From a virus: a DNA stretch of 25,001 bases. A program made the position numbers and the translations under genes. The notes below the pieces were generated by a model. It saw only the letters and a program-made list of their open reading frames with translations. It was not told where the DNA came from and searched no databases. Where the stretch lies: IMG/VR virus record IMGVR_UViG_3300036772_000007, positions 1 to 25,001 of that record. The stretch is one strand, 5' to 3'. Below are positions 11,546 to 19,506 of the stretch, in pieces; position 1 is the stretch's first letter; every line of letters begins with the position of its first letter.

Positions 11546-12057
11546 ACGACTTCACAATTGATAACATTATTGATGTTCTGTCTGATTACATCGAGCCGAT
11601 TGGTGGTACTTGCCGACAGGCACAGGCCAATAGGGTGCCGATGCCAAAAGGACAGTTCTGCATCCTGACCCCCTTGCGATTCACCCGGTTATCCACGACG
11701 AGAGACATCAAGCAAGATACCAGCTCTCCAGCTACCAGCGCGATGGGTTACACCGAAGTTCGCCAGGCTGTTATTCAGGTTGATATCTACGGTCAGGGTG
11801 CAGGGGATAGGGCTATAGCGCTCGAGACTGTTTTCACATCAGGCCACGCCTACGACAAAATAAAAGCCATCGATTCAAGACTGGCACCGCTTAATTCAAC
11901 TGCTGCGATTCAGGCCCCGATGATAGATGCGGAAAGCCAGTGGCAGGAGCGCTACACGCTAACACTCTCTTTGCAGGCACATATTACCGTGTCATTCCCG
12001 CAGGACTATTTCGACCATGCCGAAATTACCACTGAACAGGTAGATAAACGCCCATGA
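11542..12057 (+). CDS. Tail terminator / neck protein (gp12-like family)
   Basis: A 171-residue protein that probably caps the tail tube and sheath before head joining. It has VLSDYIEPIGGTCRQAQANR, then KGQFCILTPLRFTRLSTT and a strand pattern RQAVIQVDIYGQGAGDRA followed by WQERYTLTLSLQAHI. These fit the phage neck terminator family found directly before DUF3383 sheath genes. It is joined on both sides by 4-nt ATGA overlaps, so its translation is coupled to neighbours. The family assignment is from pattern memory; the position supports it. Confidence 0.8.
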   Translation: MNDFTIDNIIDVLSDYIEPIGGTCRQAQANRVPMPKGQFCILTPLRFTRLSTTRDIKQDTSSPATSAMGYTEVRQAVIQVDIYGQGAGDRAIALETVFTSGHAYDKIKAIDSRLAPLNSTAAIQAPMIDAESQWQERYTLTLSLQAHITVSFPQDYFDHAEITTEQVDKRP

Positions 12058-13544
12058 GCACAATCCCTTTATCCGTTGATTTTAATATCACGCCCAATGT
12101 TGTGACGCCTGCCGGTGATGCGGTGGACGCCAATGGCCTGATGCTTACCGACAATGAGCTAGTGCCGGTTGGCGCTGTTGTTAGCTATTTTACCGCTGCC
12201 GATATTTCTGCATTGATGGGCAGTGATTCCAAGGAGTTTCTTGCCGGGCAACAGTATTTTAACGGCTATGACAACTCCTCCGTTATCCCTGGCGAGCTGC
12301 TAATGGCTCGCATCGTGACTGAAGATGTCGCCGGGCATTTGCTGTCAGGAAATCTTAAAGGTGTGCCACTTGCCACGCTCAAAGCGATCCCAGCAGGAAC
12401 CATCACACTCACCGTTGATGGCACTGCAGTGACCAGCACCTCCATTGACCTGTCTACAGCGACGAGTTTCAGCGATATCGCAGCCAAGCTGAAAGCAGGC
12501 ATTGGTGTCAGTAAGGTTGATGTCGAATGGCTGTCTGTCGCTAACAAATTCATTATCCGTTCAGCCACCACGGGCGACGACAGTGCAGTCTCATATGCCA
12601 ACGCTGGCGCACTGGCGACTGGATTGCTACTGACTGCGGCCACCGCAGCAACTGTTTCACCGGGTTCTGATGCTGTAACCCTGACAGACACGATGAATAA
12701 CATCATCAACACTAATCAGAACTGGATCCTGTTTAACTCATTGGTTGAGCTGACCGATGAACAGAAAACTGAACTTTGCGCATGGGCCAATGGCACCAAA
12801 AACCGATTTGGCTATGTCGTCCATGACACTACTGCTGCCGGTACAGTTGCTAACAATGCTAATTGCTTCGTGCAAAAAGTGGTTGTGGCAAACGGCTACG
12901 AAAATATTTTCCCGATATATGGCTCGTACCTGTACAGCGTAACTGCCCTGTCGTATGCGGCCTCTGTGGATTTTGCGCGAACCAATGGGCGCGTTTCATT
13001 CAAGTTCCGTGGGTTCTCAGGACTGGCTCCGAATGTAAGCGACCTGGCTACATCGCAAGCGCTGAAGTCTAATGGTTACAACTTCTACGGCTCATACAGC
13101 CTGAATAAAACTATGGCTCAGTACGCATCTGATGGAGCAATTACTGGCAAGTTTGTATGGCTGGACAGCTTTATTGACCAGGTATGGATTAACGCAAATC
13201 TGGTTGGAGCTTATGCAAATCTGTTTACCAACAATCAATCCTACGCATTCAACGATGCAGGATATGGCGCTGTACAGGCGGCGACAATTGACGTAGCGGA
13301 GCAAGCTCTGACTTTTGGTGCCATCCAAAAAGGTGTGGTTCTGGACCAGGCGCAAATCCGAATCGTGAACAACACCGTCGGGAAGGATATTTCGGCCACG
13401 CTTTACTCTCAGGGCTGGTATCTCTACATTCCTACACAAACAGGTTCAGCGCGACTGGCTCGCGACCTTCAGGGCGCAATCTTCTACTACGTAGACGGAC
13501 AGCTGATCCAATCCATCACCATGTCTTCAACCGCAATTCTGTAA
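12054..13544 (+). CDS. Contractile tail sheath protein (DUF3383 family)
   Basis: A 496-residue protein that forms the contractile outer sheath. The early IPLSVDFNITPNVVTPAGDA and VPVGAVVSYFTAADISALMG are typical of DUF3383. So are FLAGQQYFNGYDNSSVIPG and, in the C-terminal half, VWLDSFIDQVWINANLVGAY with a conserved QIRIVNNTVGKDISATL region. The last part, WYLYIPTQTGSARLARDL, is followed by a final beta hairpin that in sheath proteins donates strands to neighbours. This is the strongest evidence that the phage is a myovirus. It overlaps the tail terminator by ATGA and lies 10 nt before the tube gene. Confidence 0.95.
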   Translation: MSTIPLSVDFNITPNVVTPAGDAVDANGLMLTDNELVPVGAVVSYFTAADISALMGSDSKEFLAGQQYFNGYDNSSVIPGELLMARIVTEDVAGHLLSGNLKGVPLATLKAIPAGTITLTVDGTAVTSTSIDLSTATSFSDIAAKLKAGIGVSKVDVEWLSVANKFIIRSATTGDDSAVSYANAGALATGLLLTAATAATVSPGSDAVTLTDTMNNIINTNQNWILFNSLVELTDEQKTELCAWANGTKNRFGYVVHDTTAAGTVANNANCFVQKVVVANGYENIFPIYGSYLYSVTALSYAASVDFARTNGRVSFKFRGFSGLAPNVSDLATSQALKSNGYNFYGSYSLNKTMAQYASDGAITGKFVWLDSFIDQVWINANLVGAYANLFTNNQSYAFNDAGYGAVQAATIDVAEQALTFGAIQKGVVLDQAQIRIVNNTVGKDISATLYSQGWYLYIPTQTGSARLARDLQGAIFYYVDGQLIQSITMSSTAIL

Positions 13545-13554
13545 GGACGACAAA

Positions 13555-13989
13555 ATGCCGATTGATATTACAAGTGCCAATTCCAAGTTGCGCATCGTCG
13601 TACCTTCTTACTACCCTGGCGGTTTTGACGTAGACGATTACTCAGCTGACAACATGTTTGAAACCGGGGCTCTCACCAATACAGAAGACCAGATGTCAGC
13701 GGATGGTAAGTACCATGCTGGATTTATCTTCAACCCAACGGAACAGACTATCACTTTAATGCCAACGTCTAATGCTGGCTTCCTGATTGATGATTGGTGG
13801 ACGGCAGAAAGAACGGCGATCTCTAAGTTTCCATGCAATATGGTGCTAACGGTCCCCGCACTTGGCAGGAAATGGCAGTTTGTGAATGGAGTAATCCATA
13901 CGTGGACTCAAAACCCTCCAGGCGGCCGAGTTCTCAAGGCGCGACCAGCAGTTTTCCATTTTGAATCAGTTACCCCGAGTCCAATCTGA
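13555..13989 (+). CDS. Tail tube protein (DUF3277 family)
   Basis: Inner tail tube protein of 144 residues that stacks as hexameric rings under the sheath. It has SYYPGGFDVDDYSADNMFE, the tube-like TLMPTSNAGFLIDDWW, and PCNMVLTVPALGRKWQFVNG, all typical of DUF3277. AAGGACG lies about 6 nt before the ATG. The order sheath, tube, chaperone, tape measure is the conserved myovirus order. Its stop shares one base with the chaperone start. No anomalies were seen and the length is usual for the family. Confidence 0.95.
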   Translation: MPIDITSANSKLRIVVPSYYPGGFDVDDYSADNMFETGALTNTEDQMSADGKYHAGFIFNPTEQTITLMPTSNAGFLIDDWWTAERTAISKFPCNMVLTVPALGRKWQFVNGVIHTWTQNPPGGRVLKARPAVFHFESVTPSPI

Positions 13990-14399
13990 TGGCAAGAAAA
14001 GAAATCACATACATCGTGGAAGACGAAGGCCGCGATAAAGGGAAAGAGTTCATCATCACTGAGATGTCGGCATGGGATGCTGACGAGCTGGCGCAGGATA
14101 TCTTCCGGGCAATGGGTGACTCAAACTTTTCAGAAATCCCGGCAGACGTTATCGCGATGGGATGCGCCGGTCTTGCTACGGTTGGGTTAAGTGTGCTTTC
14201 TGCATCATCCCCTGATGTGGCCCGCACTCTTCGTGACCGACTCATGTCTACCGTGCAAATTGCCATAACGTATGATGGGCAAAGGCAAGTTCGCAAAGTG
14301 AATGGTGGTATCGACTTCGAAGAGGTCTCAACGATTCGCCTGGTGATGGACAAAGTCTTTAAGGCCAACTTCGATTTTTTAACAATCGCCGAAGGGTAA
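13989..14399 (+). CDS. Tail assembly chaperone, zero-frame product
   Basis: A 136-residue protein, KEITYIVEDEGRDKGKEFII at the start and KVNGGIDFEEVSTIRLVMDK towards the end. It lies between the tube and tape measure genes, where almost all tailed phages encode a tail assembly chaperone made as a short form and a -1 frameshifted long form. It has no catalytic motif or membrane anchor. The stop TAA at 14397-14399 follows 16 nt after a T TTT TTA slippery heptamer and lies within a strong hairpin. A minority of ribosomes would instead continue in the -1 frame. It starts one base inside the tube stop. Confidence 0.88.
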   Translation: MARKEITYIVEDEGRDKGKEFIITEMSAWDADELAQDIFRAMGDSNFSEIPADVIAMGCAGLATVGLSVLSASSPDVARTLRDRLMSTVQIAITYDGQRQVRKVNGGIDFEEVSTIRLVMDKVFKANFDFLTIAEG

Positions 14400-14434
14400 A
14401 GTACCCGTTTCTCGAAGAGGAAACCCTTCCGGCG
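14375..14434 (+). promoter_or_regulatory. Programmed -1 ribosomal frameshift signal of the tail chaperone
   Basis: The zero frame reads GAT TTT TTA, giving the heptamer T TTT TTA at 14375-14381 in correct X XXY YYZ phase. After a 5-nt spacer, CGCCGAAGGGT (14387-14397) pairs with ACCCTTCCGGCG (14423-14434), an 11-bp stem with a single bulged C. The zero-frame stop is inside it. A competing smaller hairpin GGGTA/TACCC spans 14394-14406. Slippery site, spacing and stem are all directly visible; frameshifting itself is inferred. Confidence 0.85.
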
Positions 14435-14614
14435 AAATTAGTATCCCCAGTCAACATTTCCCAAACTATCAACGCCATCATCTGCTCAGGAAAAGCCACT
14501 TACCTTGACCTGCAGGAAAGACTATCCGTGGCGGATATGTACAACCTGCTGGAGATTATTTCCGTGGAAAACTTCAATCAGCGCGTATGGCATAAGTTCC
14601 AGGAGCAAAGATGA
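14381..14614 (+). CDS. Tail assembly chaperone, -1 frame extension (T-like part)
   Basis: The -1 frame is open from the slippery site for 77 codons to a TGA at 14612-14614. It reads NNRRRVKYPFLEEETLPAKL at the start and VENFNQRVWHKFQEQR at the end. It has no initiation codon near its beginning, so it is only expressible as a fusion: 131 zero-frame residues plus 77, about 208 in all. The final TGA overlaps the tape measure ATG at 14611. The content (a YLDLQERLSVADMYNLLEII helix) looks like the second domain of G/GT-type chaperones, which binds the tape measure while the tube polymerises on it. It is normally missed because it lacks a start codon. Confidence 0.82.
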   Translation, partial: NNRRRVKYPFLEEETLPAKLVSPVNISQTINAIICSGKATYLDLQERLSVADMYNLLEIISVENFNQRVWHKFQEQR

Positions 14615-16437
14615 TTATCAATGAACTTGCCTACAAGGTAACCATCAGGGCAGATGAGTTCCTGAACGGGAAAAAGAAAGTTGAAAGCGGCGTTAAAGAG
14701 CTGAGTGATACCGCTACTAAGGGGCTTGATGAAGTAGGGGAAGCATCCAAAAAGGCCGGTAATGATATCGCTAAAACTGGCGATAAAATCCAGGACTCGA
14801 ACAAAAAAACAAGGAAGTCATTTTCGGATGCGGAGTTTGACGTTAAGAAGTTTGGCGGCGCGGCAGTATCGTCATTTCGTGGTGTCACTGCTGCGGCTGC
14901 CGGGTTCCTTGGTATTGGCGCTGGATTATATGGCGTTAAGCAGTTATTCACTTCCACGGCAAACGAGATAGTCAGAGCCAGCCAGCAGGCTAAGTTTTTT
15001 GGTTCTGACGTGAATAAAATGTTTGGTGTTCAGCGCGGATTCAAACAAGCCGGTCTTAACGGTGATGCGTTTATCTCTGCATCCGGCAATGCCCGCATGG
15101 CCCTGGCTAACATTGCTGACCCGACAGTGTTTGGTGGCCTTACGGGTGCCGCTCAAAACCTTATGGTGCTGGGCGCTCGTACTGGTCTGAACGTTAATAA
15201 CCTTGGCGACCCCAACAAGGCGCTTGGAGAGTTCACCCGTTACGGCAAGAAGCATTCACAAGAGAACCTGATGCAGGTGATGTCTGCGGCTGGGTTTGAC
15301 CCTACAGATGCGGCAAAAATAAAATCTGGTGAGCTGAAGTCGCTTGTCGATTCTGAAACCAAGAAGTCCAATATCACTGCTGCTCAGGTTAAAGAACAAG
15401 AGAATCTGGTGTCTACGCTGGGCCAGCTTGATTCTGAGTTCGCAAGACTAAGGACAGATTTGGCGATAGCATTTGCACCAGAAGTGATTGATGGAATGAA
15501 GGAATTTGGTCAATGGATCAAGGAGCACCACGGCGACATCATTGGGTTCTTCAGGGATGCAGGCGATAAGGTAAAATCATTTACTGAGGCTGTAGGCGGA
15601 GCAACTAAAGCTTTAGAAATAATAGCCTCGGCTTATGCTGGATATAAAATTGGTGGAGTACCTGGGGCTATAGTCGGCGCCACTTTAAATCCAGCCACAG
15701 ATGCTGTTGAGGGTGCCATTTCTGGCACAAGCATCGGTGATTGGATGAACAACTCTGGAATTGATTTAACACCGGGTAACCCATGGTTTTATAGCAGGAA
15801 GCCTGGTGAAGAGCCTGAACAACGCGGCCAATCAGGAAGAAAGCAGATATCTCATGGTGGGTTGGATAACTTGCTTCATGGCTTGATGATGACAGAGTCG
15901 GGAGGTGATCCACTTGCTTACAACGCTGGTTCTGGAGCTGCGGGGGCGTTTCAATTCATGCCAGGTACGGCAAGAGATATGGGACTCCGTGTCGATTCAC
16001 AGGTTGATGATCGACTGAATCCAGAAAAGTCCAGAGCTGCAGCTTCTGTCTACATGCGACAGCTTTTGAATCGATATGACGGCAATGTTGATAATGCTCT
16101 CAGAGCGTACAACTGGGGCATGGGAAACGTTGATAAGTGGATTGCCAATGGTAGTGATATTTCCGCGCTCCCAAAAGAGACAAGGGAATACACTGGTAAA
16201 GTTCATGGCAATATGGGCGAAGCCAGAAACTACTATGCAACGCAGGGCAGAATCGCAGACAGCAGGCCATATCAACTGGCGTCAAGCGGTGGAAACCCGC
16301 AGATAACTAACAGCACCCATATCAACACGGTTAACGTAAACTCTAATCCTCAGACGGTTGATTCGCTAACAAAGAGCATAAATCAACAGGCGCAACGATC
16401 TTCTACTAATGCATCATTCTCTAGTGCGGTGAAGTAA
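14611..16437 (+). CDS. Tape measure protein with C-terminal lytic transglycosylase domain
   Basis: Sets tail length and helps DNA cross the cell envelope. It has 608 residues, short for a tape measure. The N-terminal half is helical and charged (LNGKKKVESGVKELSDTATK), with hydrophobic, possibly membrane-active segments near 90-115 and 325-355. The C-terminal domain (about 415-545) is an SLT-type lytic transglycosylase. It shows ESGG with catalytic Glu429, GAFQFMPGTA at 445-454 and AYNWG at 499-503. It would open peptidoglycan during infection. The ATG overlaps the frameshift stop. Composition becomes more AT-rich from about 15580, hinting that the C-terminal part was exchanged. Its end overlaps the convergent gene by 17 nt. 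Confidence 0.93.
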   Translation: MIINELAYKVTIRADEFLNGKKKVESGVKELSDTATKGLDEVGEASKKAGNDIAKTGDKIQDSNKKTRKSFSDAEFDVKKFGGAAVSSFRGVTAAAAGFLGIGAGLYGVKQLFTSTANEIVRASQQAKFFGSDVNKMFGVQRGFKQAGLNGDAFISASGNARMALANIADPTVFGGLTGAAQNLMVLGARTGLNVNNLGDPNKALGEFTRYGKKHSQENLMQVMSAAGFDPTDAAKIKSGELKSLVDSETKKSNITAAQVKEQENLVSTLGQLDSEFARLRTDLAIAFAPEVIDGMKEFGQWIKEHHGDIIGFFRDAGDKVKSFTEAVGGATKALEIIASAYAGYKIGGVPGAIVGATLNPATDAVEGAISGTSIGDWMNNSGIDLTPGNPWFYSRKPGEEPEQRGQSGRKQISHGGLDNLLHGLMMTESGGDPLAYNAGSGAAGAFQFMPGTARDMGLRVDSQVDDRLNPEKSRAAASVYMRQLLNRYDGNVDNALRAYNWGMGNVDKWIANGSDISALPKETREYTGKVHGNMGEARNYYATQGRIADSRPYQLASSGGNPQITNSTHINTVNVNSNPQTVDSLTKSINQQAQRSSTNASFSSAVK

Positions 16438-17239
16438 TCTGAACGCCAGCGGTAGGGAAATCAGTGGTCAATGGCTTAGCAATGCCAATCATGCTTTCAT
16501 AGCCACCAGAACCGCAGGACATAATATTGATATTAACCTTATCACCTGTTTTGAATAATTGATCTGCCCATGAGCGGGATGCATTGTCGAGACCATTAAA
16601 GTTGACCTCAAGCTTAGCTGGATGCTCTTTAAATCGCATTTCCTCGACATGGCGCTCATCTTTGTCGAGAATAACTTCACTGATGGTAAGATCTTGCTTT
16701 TTTGTATCGCAACCGGAACCCTCAACGTTGTAACTTACTACGGCGACATATTGTTTAGCTTTATTGACTATGAGTATATCGCCATCATACTTATCAGACT
16801 TGTTGATGATTTTACTCAGCGCGGTGTCATCATTTGGTGCTGGTGCTGGTGCTGGTGCTGAGTGATGCGCGTTATAGTAATCTACTGCTTGTTTGTGCAC
16901 GGTATCGATAACCAGTGTTTTATATCTGTCTATTTCAAACGTTATACCCGATAAACTTCTCAGACTTGCAGTCCTCCACTGGTCAATCTCTTTTGGTGAT
17001 TGTGCATTTGATGCTGCGTCGATTCCGTATACGCAATAATACTCAACTGTACGGCGTATATCCGCTGGGGATTCACCAAATTCTGCCAGTGCGTCACCCT
17101 GCTTTGCTACAAGAGTGTCACCAAAGCTATTGCATTGATTTCTTGCGGTCACTACATCTTTATATTCATCTGAATATGCAAGCCCAGCATGAGTCATAAT
17201 TAGGCATGCAACTATTGTTGTGATTGAAATAATTTTCAT
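16421..17239 (-). CDS. Secreted protein of unknown function (moron)
   Basis: A 272-residue leftward gene inserted in the rightward tail operon. Residues 1-22 are a signal peptide (MKIISITTIVACLIMTHAGLAYS) with no lipobox, so a periplasmic or secreted location is expected. An all-helical-looking domain (about 24-125) has two Cys. An Ala-Pro linker (APAPAPAP) follows. The C-terminal domain (about 140-272) looks beta-rich, with two more Cys, perhaps disulfide-linked. AAGGA precedes the ATG by about 7 nt. Strand, position, lower GC and leader suggest a lysogeny-expressed moron acting on the host envelope; that is inference. I recognise no family. The stop lies within the tape measure end. Confidence 0.8.
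   Translation of the reverse strand: MKIISITTIVACLIMTHAGLAYSDEYKDVVTARNQCNSFGDTLVAKQGDALAEFGESPADIRRTVEYYCVYGIDAASNAQSPKEIDQWRTASLRSLSGITFEIDRYKTLVIDTVHKQAVDYYNAHHSAPAPAPAPNDDTALSKIINKSDKYDGDILIVNKAKQYVAVVSYNVEGSGCDTKKQDLTISEVILDKDERHVEEMRFKEHPAKLEVNFNGLDNASRSWADQLFKTGDKVNINIMSCGSGGYESMIGIAKPLTTDFPTAGVQITSPH
16836..16859 (+). repeat. Tandem hexanucleotide repeat, four copies of GGTGCT
   Basis: Four perfect copies of GGTGCT (AGCACC on the coding strand) encode the Ala-Pro linker of the secreted protein. Because the unit is 6 nt, slippage would change linker length without breaking the frame. Confidence 0.9.
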
Positions 17240-17302
17240 ATCAATGTCCTTATGTGGTTTTCCTGACTCTAACCATTAGCTGATGAAAATTCATGCAACA
17301 TC

Positions 17303-17329
17303 GCCCACTCAGGTGGGCTTTTTATTTTT
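17303..17329 (+). terminator. Rightward Rho-independent terminator before the immI-like module
   Basis: GCCCAC (17303-17308) and GTGGGC (17313-17318) with TCAG loop, followed by TTTTTATTTTT on the + strand. The T run points rightward. It would stop tail-operon transcription from running antisense through the repressor gene. The stop codon of the Mnt-like gene lies in the loop. Confidence 0.8.
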
Positions 17330-17668
17330 ACTTTCCAGCGCGAGCTTTTGAGCCTCTTTACGCGCGATATTCTTAAGCTCCTCTTCAAACTCCTTGGTCA
17401 TTATGGTTTTTGCTGCGATCTCCACGAATTCAGGAAGCCTTTCCATTGTCAGTCTCTTAACTGTTTCTTGGGCATGAGCTGAGAAGCTGCCCGGCTCAGC
17501 CGCGCCGAGAAGTCGACCACTATCGGCGTCATTCAAATAGGATTCTGTTAATCGGGTGACAATCTCGGAGTTTAGAGAGCGACCATTTTTTTTTGCACTC
17601 TCCTGCAACCTTTCTTTCAGCTCAGCGGGCAATCGAACGCCGTACGGCGCGATATCTCGAACTTTCAT
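17309..17668 (-). CDS. Mnt/Arc-like ribbon-helix-helix repressor (leftward)
   Basis: A 119-residue DNA-binding protein. Residues about 9-45 have the Arc/Mnt ribbon-helix-helix pattern: beta strand YGVRLP, helix AELKERLQESAKKNGRS, then LNSEIVTRL. The rest is helical and charged and may form the oligomerisation tail, as in P22 Mnt, although longer. The gene faces left, opposite to the Arc-like gene at 17786, with operator-like repeats between. This is the same geometry as mnt and arc in the P22 immI region. It probably represses the antirepressor operon in the lysogen. The ATG at 17668 was chosen; an upstream ATG (17710) would begin inside the operator region. Confidence 0.85.
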   Translation of the reverse strand: MKVRDIAPYGVRLPAELKERLQESAKKNGRSLNSEIVTRLTESYLNDADSGRLLGAAEPGSFSAHAQETVKRLTMERLPEFVEIAAKTIMTKEFEEELKNIARKEAQKLALESKNKKPT

Positions 17669-17694
17669 AGTGTTAATCCGTGTAGCAAGGTTTC

Positions 17695-17768
17695 TACACA
17701 ATGTAATCAAAAACGCTTTGACAATCTATGCACACAATGTAGTATTTGTGTAGTGATTACACAATGTA
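17695..17768. repeat. Three operator-like copies of TACACAATGTA
   Basis: TACACAATGTA, a short inverted repeat (TACA-CAA-TGTA), occurs exactly at 17695-17705 and 17758-17768, and as CACACAATGTA at 17731-17741. Start-to-start spacings are 36 and 27 nt. A further half-site TTTGTGTAG lies at about 17745-17753. The set fills the gap between the divergent Mnt- and Arc-like genes and overlaps the rightward promoter, fitting binding sites for one or both repressors. Confidence 0.75.
17718..17745 (+). promoter_or_regulatory. Promoter for the Arc-like gene and antirepressors
   Basis: A perfect -35 TTGACA at 17718-17723 and a -10 TAGTAT at 17740-17745, 16 nt apart. One operator-like repeat covers the -10 edge (17731-17741) and another the expected start point (17758-17768). 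Repressor binding there should block transcription. No equally convincing leftward promoter was seen. Confidence 0.65.
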
Positions 17769-17785
17769 GAAAATGTGAGGCAGCA

Positions 17786-17947
17786 ATGGAACAGGCACGT
17801 AACATCCCACCAACTGGTATTCGGTTCCCGGAATCATTGAAAGAGATCATCAAGAAAGCAGCAAAAGAAGAAGGTCGCTCACTTAACAGTGAGGTCATTA
17901 AGCGGATCGAACGGAGTTTGAAAGAAGATGGATTTATCAAAGCGTAA
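17786..17947 (+). CDS. Arc-like ribbon-helix-helix repressor (rightward)
   Basis: A 53-residue protein, the same length as P22 Arc. It shows the short beta strand TGIRFP (10-15), helix ESLKEIIKKAAKEEGRS, and LNSEVIKRIERSL, the canonical Arc fold, and is clearly related to the leftward neighbour (both have GRSLNSE). GAGG is 5 nt before the ATG at 17786; the frame is open to 17753, but those codons fall in the operator. In P22, Arc turns down the ant operon after infection, and the same role is inferred here, with the BRO-N and ORF6N genes downstream. It acts as a dimer on the intergenic repeats by analogy. Confidence 0.88.
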   Translation: MEQARNIPPTGIRFPESLKEIIKKAAKEEGRSLNSEVIKRIERSLKEDGFIKA

Positions 17948-17957
17948 ATACGGCGAA

Positions 17958-17984
17958 GCCCTAACTAATTGCAATAGTCAGGGC
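17958..17984 (+). promoter_or_regulatory. Hairpin between the Arc-like gene and the BRO-N gene
   Basis: GCCCTAACT (17958-17966) and AGTCAGGGC (17976-17984) form eight base pairs with one mismatch around a 9-nt AT-rich loop. There is no T run on either side, so it is not an ordinary terminator. It could shape translation of the downstream gene or mRNA stability. Confidence 0.4.
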
Positions 17985-18020
17985 CTCTTATCGAACAAAT
18001 CCAGCGAAGGAATTATCGAC

Positions 18021-18641
18021 ATGAATATTGTAGCAAAATCAGATCTTAACTTCCAAGGCAAAGCGCTTGTGCCGGTATCTAACATTACTGGAACCTGGTT
18101 GACTTCATCCGACCTTGCAAAAGCACTTCAATATTCAAACAGCCGCGCTGTGACAATGATCTATAACAAGTACGCAGACGAGTTTACCAGTGCAATGACT
18201 CAGGTACTCGAAGTGAGTACCTCAGGGGATGAGGTCGGGGTACTCAATCTGAGTACCTCGAAGAACGTTAGGAATTTAAAGAAGAAAGTTCGTGTTTTCT
18301 CGTTACGCGGCGCTCATCTGATCGCCATGTTTGCTCGCACACCTGTAGCCAAAGAGTTCCGCCGCTGGGTGTTGGATATTCTGGATCGCGAAGTTGCACA
18401 GGGTAACGTCAACCCGGCATTCGATTTCAAGATGCACGTTCATAACATCAACGTGGCATGCATTCACTTAGACGCAATGTATGAAATCTGGCGCAATGAG
18501 CTTAGCCCCGCGCTTCGCACTCTCGGTTCTCCGGTAGCGGGGAAAATGGTTGATCGCCTGAAGGATGCATGTGCTCAGGTAAATGGTGTGCGTGGTGGTA
18601 TGGAAAGAGCTTCTGGTTTGAAGGGATTGCAGTATCACTGA
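18021..18641 (+). CDS. BRO-N domain antirepressor-like protein
   Basis: A 206-residue protein. The N-terminal BRO-N domain (about 15-125) is seen in TWLTSSDLAKALQYSNSRAV, VRVFSLRGAHLIAMFARTPV and AKEFRRWVLDILDREV. These are the typical A-L-x-Y and R-x-W-V-L-D signatures of phage antirepressors. The C-terminal part has a Lys/Met/His-rich helix and no recognised domain. Between them lie two VLEVSTS/VLNLSTS segments encoded by a duplicated inverted repeat. The ATG at 18021 has AAGGA 9-10 nt upstream. An in-frame ATG at 17928, overlapping the Arc-like gene, is the alternative start. It probably interferes with a phage repressor, by analogy with P22 Ant control, but the target is unknown. Confidence 0.83.
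   Translation: MNIVAKSDLNFQGKALVPVSNITGTWLTSSDLAKALQYSNSRAVTMIYNKYADEFTSAMTQVLEVSTSGDEVGVLNLSTSKNVRNLKKKVRVFSLRGAHLIAMFARTPVAKEFRRWVLDILDREVAQGNVNPAFDFKMHVHNINVACIHLDAMYEIWRNELSPALRTLGSPVAGKMVDRLKDACAQVNGVRGGMERASGLKGLQYH
18202..18257. repeat. Duplicated GGTACTC-N5-GAGTACC inverted repeat inside the BRO-N gene
   Basis: The first copy is AGGTACTC-GAAGT-GAGTACCT (18202-18222), a perfect 8-bp inverted repeat. The second is GGTACTC-AATCT-GAGTACC (18239-18257), a perfect 7-bp inverted repeat. Their starts are about 36 nt apart, so the duplication stays in frame. The spacers differ in sequence but not in length, as expected if the palindrome itself is under selection. Confidence 0.85.
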
Positions 18642-18660
18642 TGGGCGCATGGGATGGCGC

Positions 18661-18691
18661 AAAAAGAAAAACCGCCAGTTACAGCTGGCGG
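18661..18691 (-). terminator. Leftward Rho-independent terminator upstream of the ORF6N gene
   Basis: CCGCCAG (18672-18678) and CTGGCGG (18685-18691) form a 7-bp GC-rich stem. On the minus strand it is followed by TTTTTCTTTTT (the A-rich run 18661-18671 on the + strand). There is no T run on the + strand, so the polarity is leftward, opposite to the genes on both sides. Confidence 0.75.
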
Positions 18692-18741
18692 CTTACGTTA
18701 ACTACTGATTGGAGTCTTGCATGCAACAATCTTTATCAACT
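18661..18741 (-). ncRNA. Candidate Sar-like antisense RNA covering the ORF6N gene start
   Basis: A leftward transcript of about 80 nt is predicted from about 18741 to about 18661. The promoter is at 18748-18776 and the terminator at 18661-18691. It would be complementary to the ORF6N Shine-Dalgarno (18711-18714) and ATG (18721) and would end just beyond. P22 makes a similar short RNA, Sar, that blocks ant translation. The ends are predictions only. Confidence 0.45.
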
Positions 18742-19506
18742 GCTGTAAATGTAGCAAACGTAGTTCCTGCTGTCGATCCTGATATGTTTCCAGTGATTGA
18801 GTGGGCGGGTGTTCGTGTTGTTACAACTGAAGTTCTGGCTAAGGGGTACGGGTGCGATGAAAAAAATATTCGCATGAATCTATCGAGAAATTTGGAGCGT
18901 TTCGAAGAGGGTAAGCATTACTTCATGATTACCGGTGCAGAGCTTAATAATTTGCGAGCTACTGCCAGTGGCTCACAAATTTCAAGCAAAGCCCGGAGCC
19001 TCACCCTCTGGACTGAAAAGGGCGCGGCCCGCATGTCGAAGATTGTCGACACCGATGAAGCGTGGAATTTCTTTGAGCGGCTGGAGGATGCATATTTTCA
19101 CCCTAACAAGTCAGTTATTCCTCAAACCTACGAAGAAGCGTTGGAAGATCTTCTTGCCAAGGTGAAGGAAAATCGTCTGATTGCAGAACAGCGTGATCAT
19201 GCCGTGCGCACGAAAGCTTGGATTGGTGAGAAACGTGAAGCAACAGCAATGGCAACCGCCTCAGCCGAAAAGCGCAAAGCAAATGCCTTGGCTGAAAAAT
19301 TGGGAGAATGCAGTAAATTCGCAACCATTAAAGCCGTGCATCGTGAAACTGGTGAGAAATTCAGCCCGTATCCAATGCGTAAATGGTGCAAAGAGAATGG
19401 ATTATCGGCCAGGGATGTACCCGATGAAAGCTACGGCACAGTAAAGGCATGGCCTGCTGAAGCATGGAAAGCTGTAAATAACGTGGTGTTACGTAAGTTG
19501 TTTTAA
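18721..19506 (+). CDS. ORF6N domain antirepressor
   Basis: A 261-residue protein. The N-terminal ORF6N-type domain (about 25-120) contains VIEWAGVRVVTTEVLAKGYG, IRMNLSRNLERFEEGKHYF and RSLTLWTEKGAARMSKIV, the typical start of phage antirepressors. A helical, Ala/Lys/Glu-rich linker follows (about 140-195). The C-terminal part carries FATIKAVHRETGEKFSPYPM and RKWCKENGLSARDVPDESYG, a small DNA- or protein-binding domain found on such proteins. GGAG at 18711-18714 lies 6 nt before the ATG at 18721. It is the last gene of the module and is followed by a strong terminator. It probably binds and inactivates a repressor to induce prophage growth; the target is not in this window. Confidence 0.85.
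   Translation: MQQSLSTAVNVANVVPAVDPDMFPVIEWAGVRVVTTEVLAKGYGCDEKNIRMNLSRNLERFEEGKHYFMITGAELNNLRATASGSQISSKARSLTLWTEKGAARMSKIVDTDEAWNFFERLEDAYFHPNKSVIPQTYEEALEDLLAKVKENRLIAEQRDHAVRTKAWIGEKREATAMATASAEKRKANALAEKLGECSKFATIKAVHRETGEKFSPYPMRKWCKENGLSARDVPDESYGTVKAWPAEAWKAVNNVVLRKLF
18748..18776 (-). promoter_or_regulatory. Candidate leftward promoter for the antisense RNA
   Basis: On the minus strand, TCGACA (18776-18771; 5 of 6 match to the -35 consensus) is separated by exactly 17 nt from TACATT (18753-18748; 4 of 6 match to the -10 consensus). It lies within codons 10-19 of the ORF6N gene and points at its start region. Confidence 0.4.

Follow-up and report, generated by a model that had tools for sequence, protein, structure and literature searches.

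Results and Discussion

A probable programmed frameshift in a phage tail chaperone gene

The tail assembly chaperone gene of this contractile-tailed phage very probably encodes two products through a programmed −1 ribosomal frameshift of the kind known from lambda G/GT and P2 E/E+E′. The sequence and its relatives show a slippery heptamer in exact phase, an open −1 frame behind it, conservation of the slip site among homologues and a signature of purifying selection on the −1 product. Such a frameshift had been proposed in the original prediction from the letters of the DNA, and the conserved heptamer, the open frame and the conserved −1 protein sequence now strongly support it. The mechanism as such is textbook; the member described here is new and unannotated in its phage family. 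The window, i.e., the whole stretch of DNA analysed, comprises 25,001 nucleotides, and its relevant features are collected in Table 1.

Table 1. Features of the chaperone locus and its neighbours (coordinates of the window).
Feature	Coordinates	Strand	Evidence
Tail sheath (DUF3383)	12054..13544	+	PF11863 E 4.4e-102; phrog_205
Virion structural protein (E217 gp32-like), probably tail tube	13555..13989	+	PF22764 E 1e-16; phrog_1964 E 1.2e-55
Zero-frame ORF, 136 aa, short tail assembly chaperone (gpG-like, TAC-N)	13989..14399	+	phrog_1932 E 8.5e-46; annotated homologues
Slippery heptamer T TTT TTA	14375..14381	+	sequence; T6N in 89/96 distinct homologous genes, T TTT in 96/96
−1 extension, 77 codons plus TGA, C-terminal domain, putatively gpT-like	14381..14614	+	phrog_3976 E 2.7e-18; dN/dS 0.21
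Spacer, 4 nt (5 nt if U14386–A14435 is open)	14382..14385	+	MFE structure
Stem-loop, 12 bp, bulged C14429, nested hairpin 14408–14422	14386..14435	+	MFE, covariation, synonymous randomisations
Zero-frame stop TAA, first base within stem	14397..14399	+	sequence, MFE fold
Tape measure / lytic tail protein, SLT domain	14611..16437	+	phrog_2013 E 7.8e-137; Pfam SLT E 9.1e-24

According to Pfam, PHROG and the records of relatives, the genes follow one another in the order sheath, tube-like protein, chaperone, extension and tape measure, and since a sheath gene is present, the tail is contractile. The chaperone gene is situated between the E217_Gp32-like gene and the SLT tape measure gene, as lambda-type phages place G and T. 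The TGA of the former gene overlaps the chaperone ATG, and its position suggests that this gene probably encodes the tail tube. The zero-frame ORF matches the PHROG family annotated as 'tail assembly chaperone', and homologues in NC_026611, NC_054464, NC_019527 and OQ847583 carry the same annotation. The family matched by the −1 extension is listed with unknown function, and a gpT-like role of this domain is suggested by its gene position.

Modelled with AlphaFold (mean pLDDT 78.7), the zero-frame protein resembles predicted phage proteins in BFVD, with best E values of 1.4e-6 for an uncharacterised protein and 1.3e-5 for a named tail assembly chaperone. Searches with both chaperone parts gave no match in Pfam or NCBIfam, and the chaperone matched no solved structure in the PDB, either by sequence or by fold. 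Likewise, the fold search with the −1 domain yielded no significant match, Rfam gave none within the window, and E. coli genomes contained no near match.

Slip site, reading frames and proposed mechanism

With the zero frame set by ATG 13989, the heptamer is read as T 14375, TTT 14376–14378 and TTA 14379–14381, in exact phase as originally claimed, and 18 nt separate it from the end of the zero-frame stop. The open −1 frame spans 14363 to TGA 14612–14614. The first codon after a −1 slip would be AAC 14381–14383, and 77 codons (14381–14611) would be read from the slip up to this TGA, which shares the sequence ATGA with ATG 14611 of the tape measure gene. The anticipated overlap with the tape measure start and a fusion of about 208 residues (131 + 77) agree with this layout. 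TTTTTTA occurs seven times in the window against 4.3 expected, and the heptamer alone is therefore not unusual; chance is excluded because of the comparative evidence described below, not by the heptamer or the stem alone.

In the proposed mechanism, most ribosomes would stop at the zero-frame TAA and release the 136-residue chaperone. In a minority, tRNA-Phe on UUU and tRNA-Leu on UUA would slip back by one base onto UUU UUU, and these ribosomes would continue through the 77 further codons to yield the 208-residue fusion. In the clade of the window, the stem 4–5 nt downstream probably makes slippage more frequent. By analogy with lambda gpG and gpGT, the common part may coat the tape measure protein, while the minor C-terminal part may bring tail tube subunits to it, and the ratio of the two products would then matter for assembly. 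In lambda, the chaperones are no longer part of the finished virion. We infer slippage in cells from the sequences, and its efficiency is uncertain because in E. coli, U UUU UUA is reported to shift far less readily than A AAA AAG (PMC5009743).

Conservation of the slip site and of the −1 product

The comparison drew on 57 relatives from a viral scan and a genome scan, on 80 profile-scan loci with partial overlap to this set, and on 22 matching phage records. All close relatives with complete sequence possess an in-phase T6 heptamer followed by an open −1 frame, which extends about 66–71 codons past the zero-frame stop. Stops in the −1 frame or loss of the heptamer in homologous phages had been named as findings that would speak against the frameshift, and no close relative displays either.

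Across 96 distinct homologous genes, which are related rather than independent sequences with chaperone identity to the window down to about 30–40%, a TTT preceded by T lies in phase at the slip in every case, and T6N is found in 89. The heptamers comprise TTTTTTA (65), TTTTTTC (13), TTTTTTG (6), TTTTTTT (5), T5C-type sequences (6) and TTTTGTA (1). Elsewhere in these genes, TTT accounts for 41% of Phe codons (215/528) and TTA for only 6% of Leu codons (63/992), compared with TTTTTTA at 65/96 slip sites.

Furthermore, 39 distinct 77-codon extensions contain no −1 stop at all, and the other two frames are both interrupted by stops in 39/39. The dN/dS across the extension of these 39 relatives is 0.21 in the −1 frame versus 1.35 and 2.13 in the other two, which shows purifying selection on the −1 product. 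Immediately behind the slip site, a conserved arginine-rich stretch (RRRVKYPF) begins. Many relatives have a −1 frame that is open just 25–31 nt upstream of the zero-frame stop and thus closed a few nucleotides before the heptamer, so that entry into this frame must occur at the heptamer.

Alternative explanations

The same fusion could arise without any slip of the ribosome if RNA polymerase slipped on the T6 run and produced a mixed mRNA pool. A homopolymer T run is indeed present at the junction, and some relatives have longer runs, e.g., T9 in locus L137. However, slippage by the E. coli polymerase needs a long homopolymer run, and none is conserved at this site: the run is only T6 here and T5 or T4 in several related clades whose extension is retained. 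For comparison, a Citrobacter gene yields two products through slippage of the polymerase at 11 A (PMC4256274). The conserved feature is the frame phase (T TTT) rather than the run length, as ribosomal slippage predicts, and transcriptional slippage is therefore considered very unlikely.

The −1 ORF might also be a gene of its own, with a separate start codon or with translation reinitiating behind the TAA that ends at 14399. The GenBank records of relatives with separate ORFs of 48–60 aa would fit this, and the zero-frame stop within the region could permit a re-start. On the other hand, the −1 frame was predicted to have no start of its own near its beginning, and indeed no ATG, GTG or TTG is conserved where the RRRVKYPF stretch begins, while the first in-frame ATG of the window (about 14537) lies deep inside and leaves 25 residues. 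An independent gene would also leave the fixed TTT TTN codons unexplained, and it is hard to reconcile with an arginine-rich stretch that begins right at the slip site and a −1 frame that is closed just before the heptamer in many relatives; we regard it as extremely improbable. That a pseudogene or a sequencing error has split a once-continuous chaperone gene has a practically negligible probability: although a one-base difference would join the two frames, the two-frame layout recurs in all readable close relatives and many distant ones, the extension is under purifying selection, and this conservation refutes the reading.

A lineage-specific downstream stem

In the MFE fold (−21.5 kcal/mol), positions 14386–14397 pair with 14423–14428 and 14430–14435, leaving C14429 bulged. 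The stem comprises 12 bp, or 11 bp leaving out U14386–A14435, and accordingly 4 nt (counted to U14386) or 5 nt (to C14387) lie between heptamer and stem. Its loop encloses a second hairpin of 6 bp (14408–14413 with 14417–14422). The strong 11-bp stem with a bulged C of the original prediction is therefore present and slightly larger than described, but it is specific to a clade. The zero-frame stop, said to lie inside the stem, contributes the first base of the TAA to it, and the AA lies in an internal loop. As low a free energy was reached by 2 of 200 dinucleotide shuffles (z −3.0), as stable a fold by 18 of 2000 synonymous-codon randomisations, and as extreme a value by 8 of 266 control windows. 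Given its coding content, the stem is only moderately unusual.

In the clade of the window, 97% of the cells scored for the seven core pairs are paired, versus 33–55% with the partner slid. One stem pair alternates between A-U (20 sequences) and G-C (7 sequences), and both sides are changed in 9 cells versus 2.3 in shuffles, a covariation that comes from few independent events among related sequences. The change of the 5′ arm from GAAGGG to GGAGAG keeps RRRV in the −1 frame and turns EG into GE in the zero frame, which fits joint selection on the putative fusion and the stem. In the stem-bearing group, each of the 19 sequences tested folds more stably than the synonymous-codon null, most of them mildly so. 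In Yersinia/Edwardsiella-type and several other clades, fold stability centres on zero relative to this null, and the stem is absent from other clades with the same heptamer. Taken together, these data make the stem a likely lineage-specific stimulator in the clade of the window rather than a universal part of the frameshift site.

The zero-frame C-terminus reads AEG or AGE in stem-bearing clades and AAA in those without the stem (window 14386–14428 versus L031, L049 and L053), while the −1 reading stays R-R/S-R-V. The last zero-frame residues thus seem able to vary with the stem and the −1 frame. Three further candidate elements were rejected. Conservation of the nested loop hairpin is no better than chance. 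The smaller GGGTA/TACCC hairpin, suggested earlier as a switch between two structures, had to be abandoned, since 21 of 29 sequences disrupt its second pair and its covariation does not exceed that of shuffles. Short Shine-Dalgarno-like AGG/GAGG matches 7–19 nt upstream vary with the coding sequence and are not conserved as a stimulator.

Slip sites in distant relatives

The exceptions to T6N were followed with three further scans. In a metagenomic clade, 29 of 32 distinct genes possess gat TTT TCT/TCG (T5 only) at the slip position, and Aeromonas-type loci possess ggt TTT TCT/TCC within a G GGT TTT heptamer; the extension is intact in both types (loci L205–L252, L005 and L255–L264). In a Klebsiella-type clade (L008:2459–2977 and L148–L203), gcT TTT GTA/GTC or gcT TTC TTA/TTG occupies this position and no X XXY YYZ heptamer is present, yet the −1 extension is conserved. 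Among these distant loci, L181 ends at the contig edge.

The common denominator of these distant sites is U UUY, i.e., P-site tRNA-Phe re-pairing. It is conceivable, though we consider it doubtful, that the slip site has relaxed within one chaperone family from tandem U UUU UUN to P-site-only tRNA-Phe re-pairing with the extension left intact. If this is true, the relaxed sites would offer a natural set of cases in which to study what takes the place of the second slippery codon. More generally, the variety of slip sites in this family, some followed by a stem and others not, is a useful natural resource for comparing frameshift mechanics.

One close chaperone locus (L061), whose slip region is the same as that of L012, is located in a contig titled Chryseobacterium. 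The other genome hits belong to Enterobacterales, and L061 possibly stems from a mislabelled or contaminated assembly.

Comparison with known systems

The lambda G/GT frameshift is widely conserved, and that of P2 is two- to three-fold higher (PMC5009743), while a reporter test in a tail chaperone cluster gave 6–7% (PMC3711429). The present locus shares with lambda G/GT the position between the tail tube and tape measure genes and the predicted output of a short product and a minor −1 fusion. It differs in the contractile tail, in U UUU UUA instead of the lambda site and in the downstream stem of its clade, and PHROG and Pfam revealed no sequence relation of its chaperone to lambda gpG. With P2 E/E+E′, it has in common a T6N heptamer in the tail chaperone gene of a contractile-tailed phage and the same gene logic (PMC3091744). 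P2 shifts at TTTTTTG, which P2-like Burkholderia phages keep without a hairpin (PMC3091744) and which is also present in three relatives here (L051, L109 and L110). The differences are that P2-like phages are reported without a downstream hairpin (PMC3091744) and that the proteins here belong to PHROG 1932 and 3976.

A 2025 paper makes the same annotation correction in another myovirus family (PMC12846349). The locus it treats in Pakpunavirus, Vandenendeviridae and Andersonviridae likewise has a −1 extension misannotated as a separate hypothetical gene, a T-rich slip motif (GTTTTT) and no −1 stop across the family; it concerns other phage families, has GTTTTT rather than TTTTTTA, and no stem is described in the passages considered (PMC12846349). 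HIV-1 gag-pol has the identical heptamer U UUU UUA and a downstream stem, but the likeness is mechanical only, as the genes are unrelated and bacterial ribosomes translate the present one. No report of a tail chaperone frameshift in this phage family was found in the openly licensed literature. Papers on Edno5 and Aeromonas phage 56 (new myovirus group), on Brutus and Scipio, two related phages of Obolenskvirus, and on the Pbunavirus phage Banzai do not mention one.

Annotation of the family and a neighbouring cassette

In the examined phage records of this family, the locus is given as two separate genes or the extension is unannotated. In the records of GF-2, Edno5, PA-1 and 56, the extension is entered as an ORF of its own with 48–60 residues, and the separate hypothetical genes (L002:2986–3132, L003:2986–3132, L004:2935–3117 and L005:2926–3102) cover its C-terminal part from an internal start codon. 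The expectation that routine gene callers leave 14400–14610 empty therefore does not always hold, as relatives' records place a truncated ORF there. The frameshift reading corrects the annotation of a widespread group of myovirus prophages, Gofduovirus-like ones and their relatives, whose records lack the minor long form of the chaperone or show a stray short ORF instead, and it would make PHROG families 1932 and 3976 the two portions of a single product.

Downstream of this locus, between the tape measure and baseplate genes, the window contains a cassette (16421–19506). It includes a 272-aa ORF on the minus strand without a Pfam match, an Arc-type DNA-binding protein on the minus strand (17309–17710), a BRO-N antirepressor (17928–18641) and an ORF6N protein (18709–19506).
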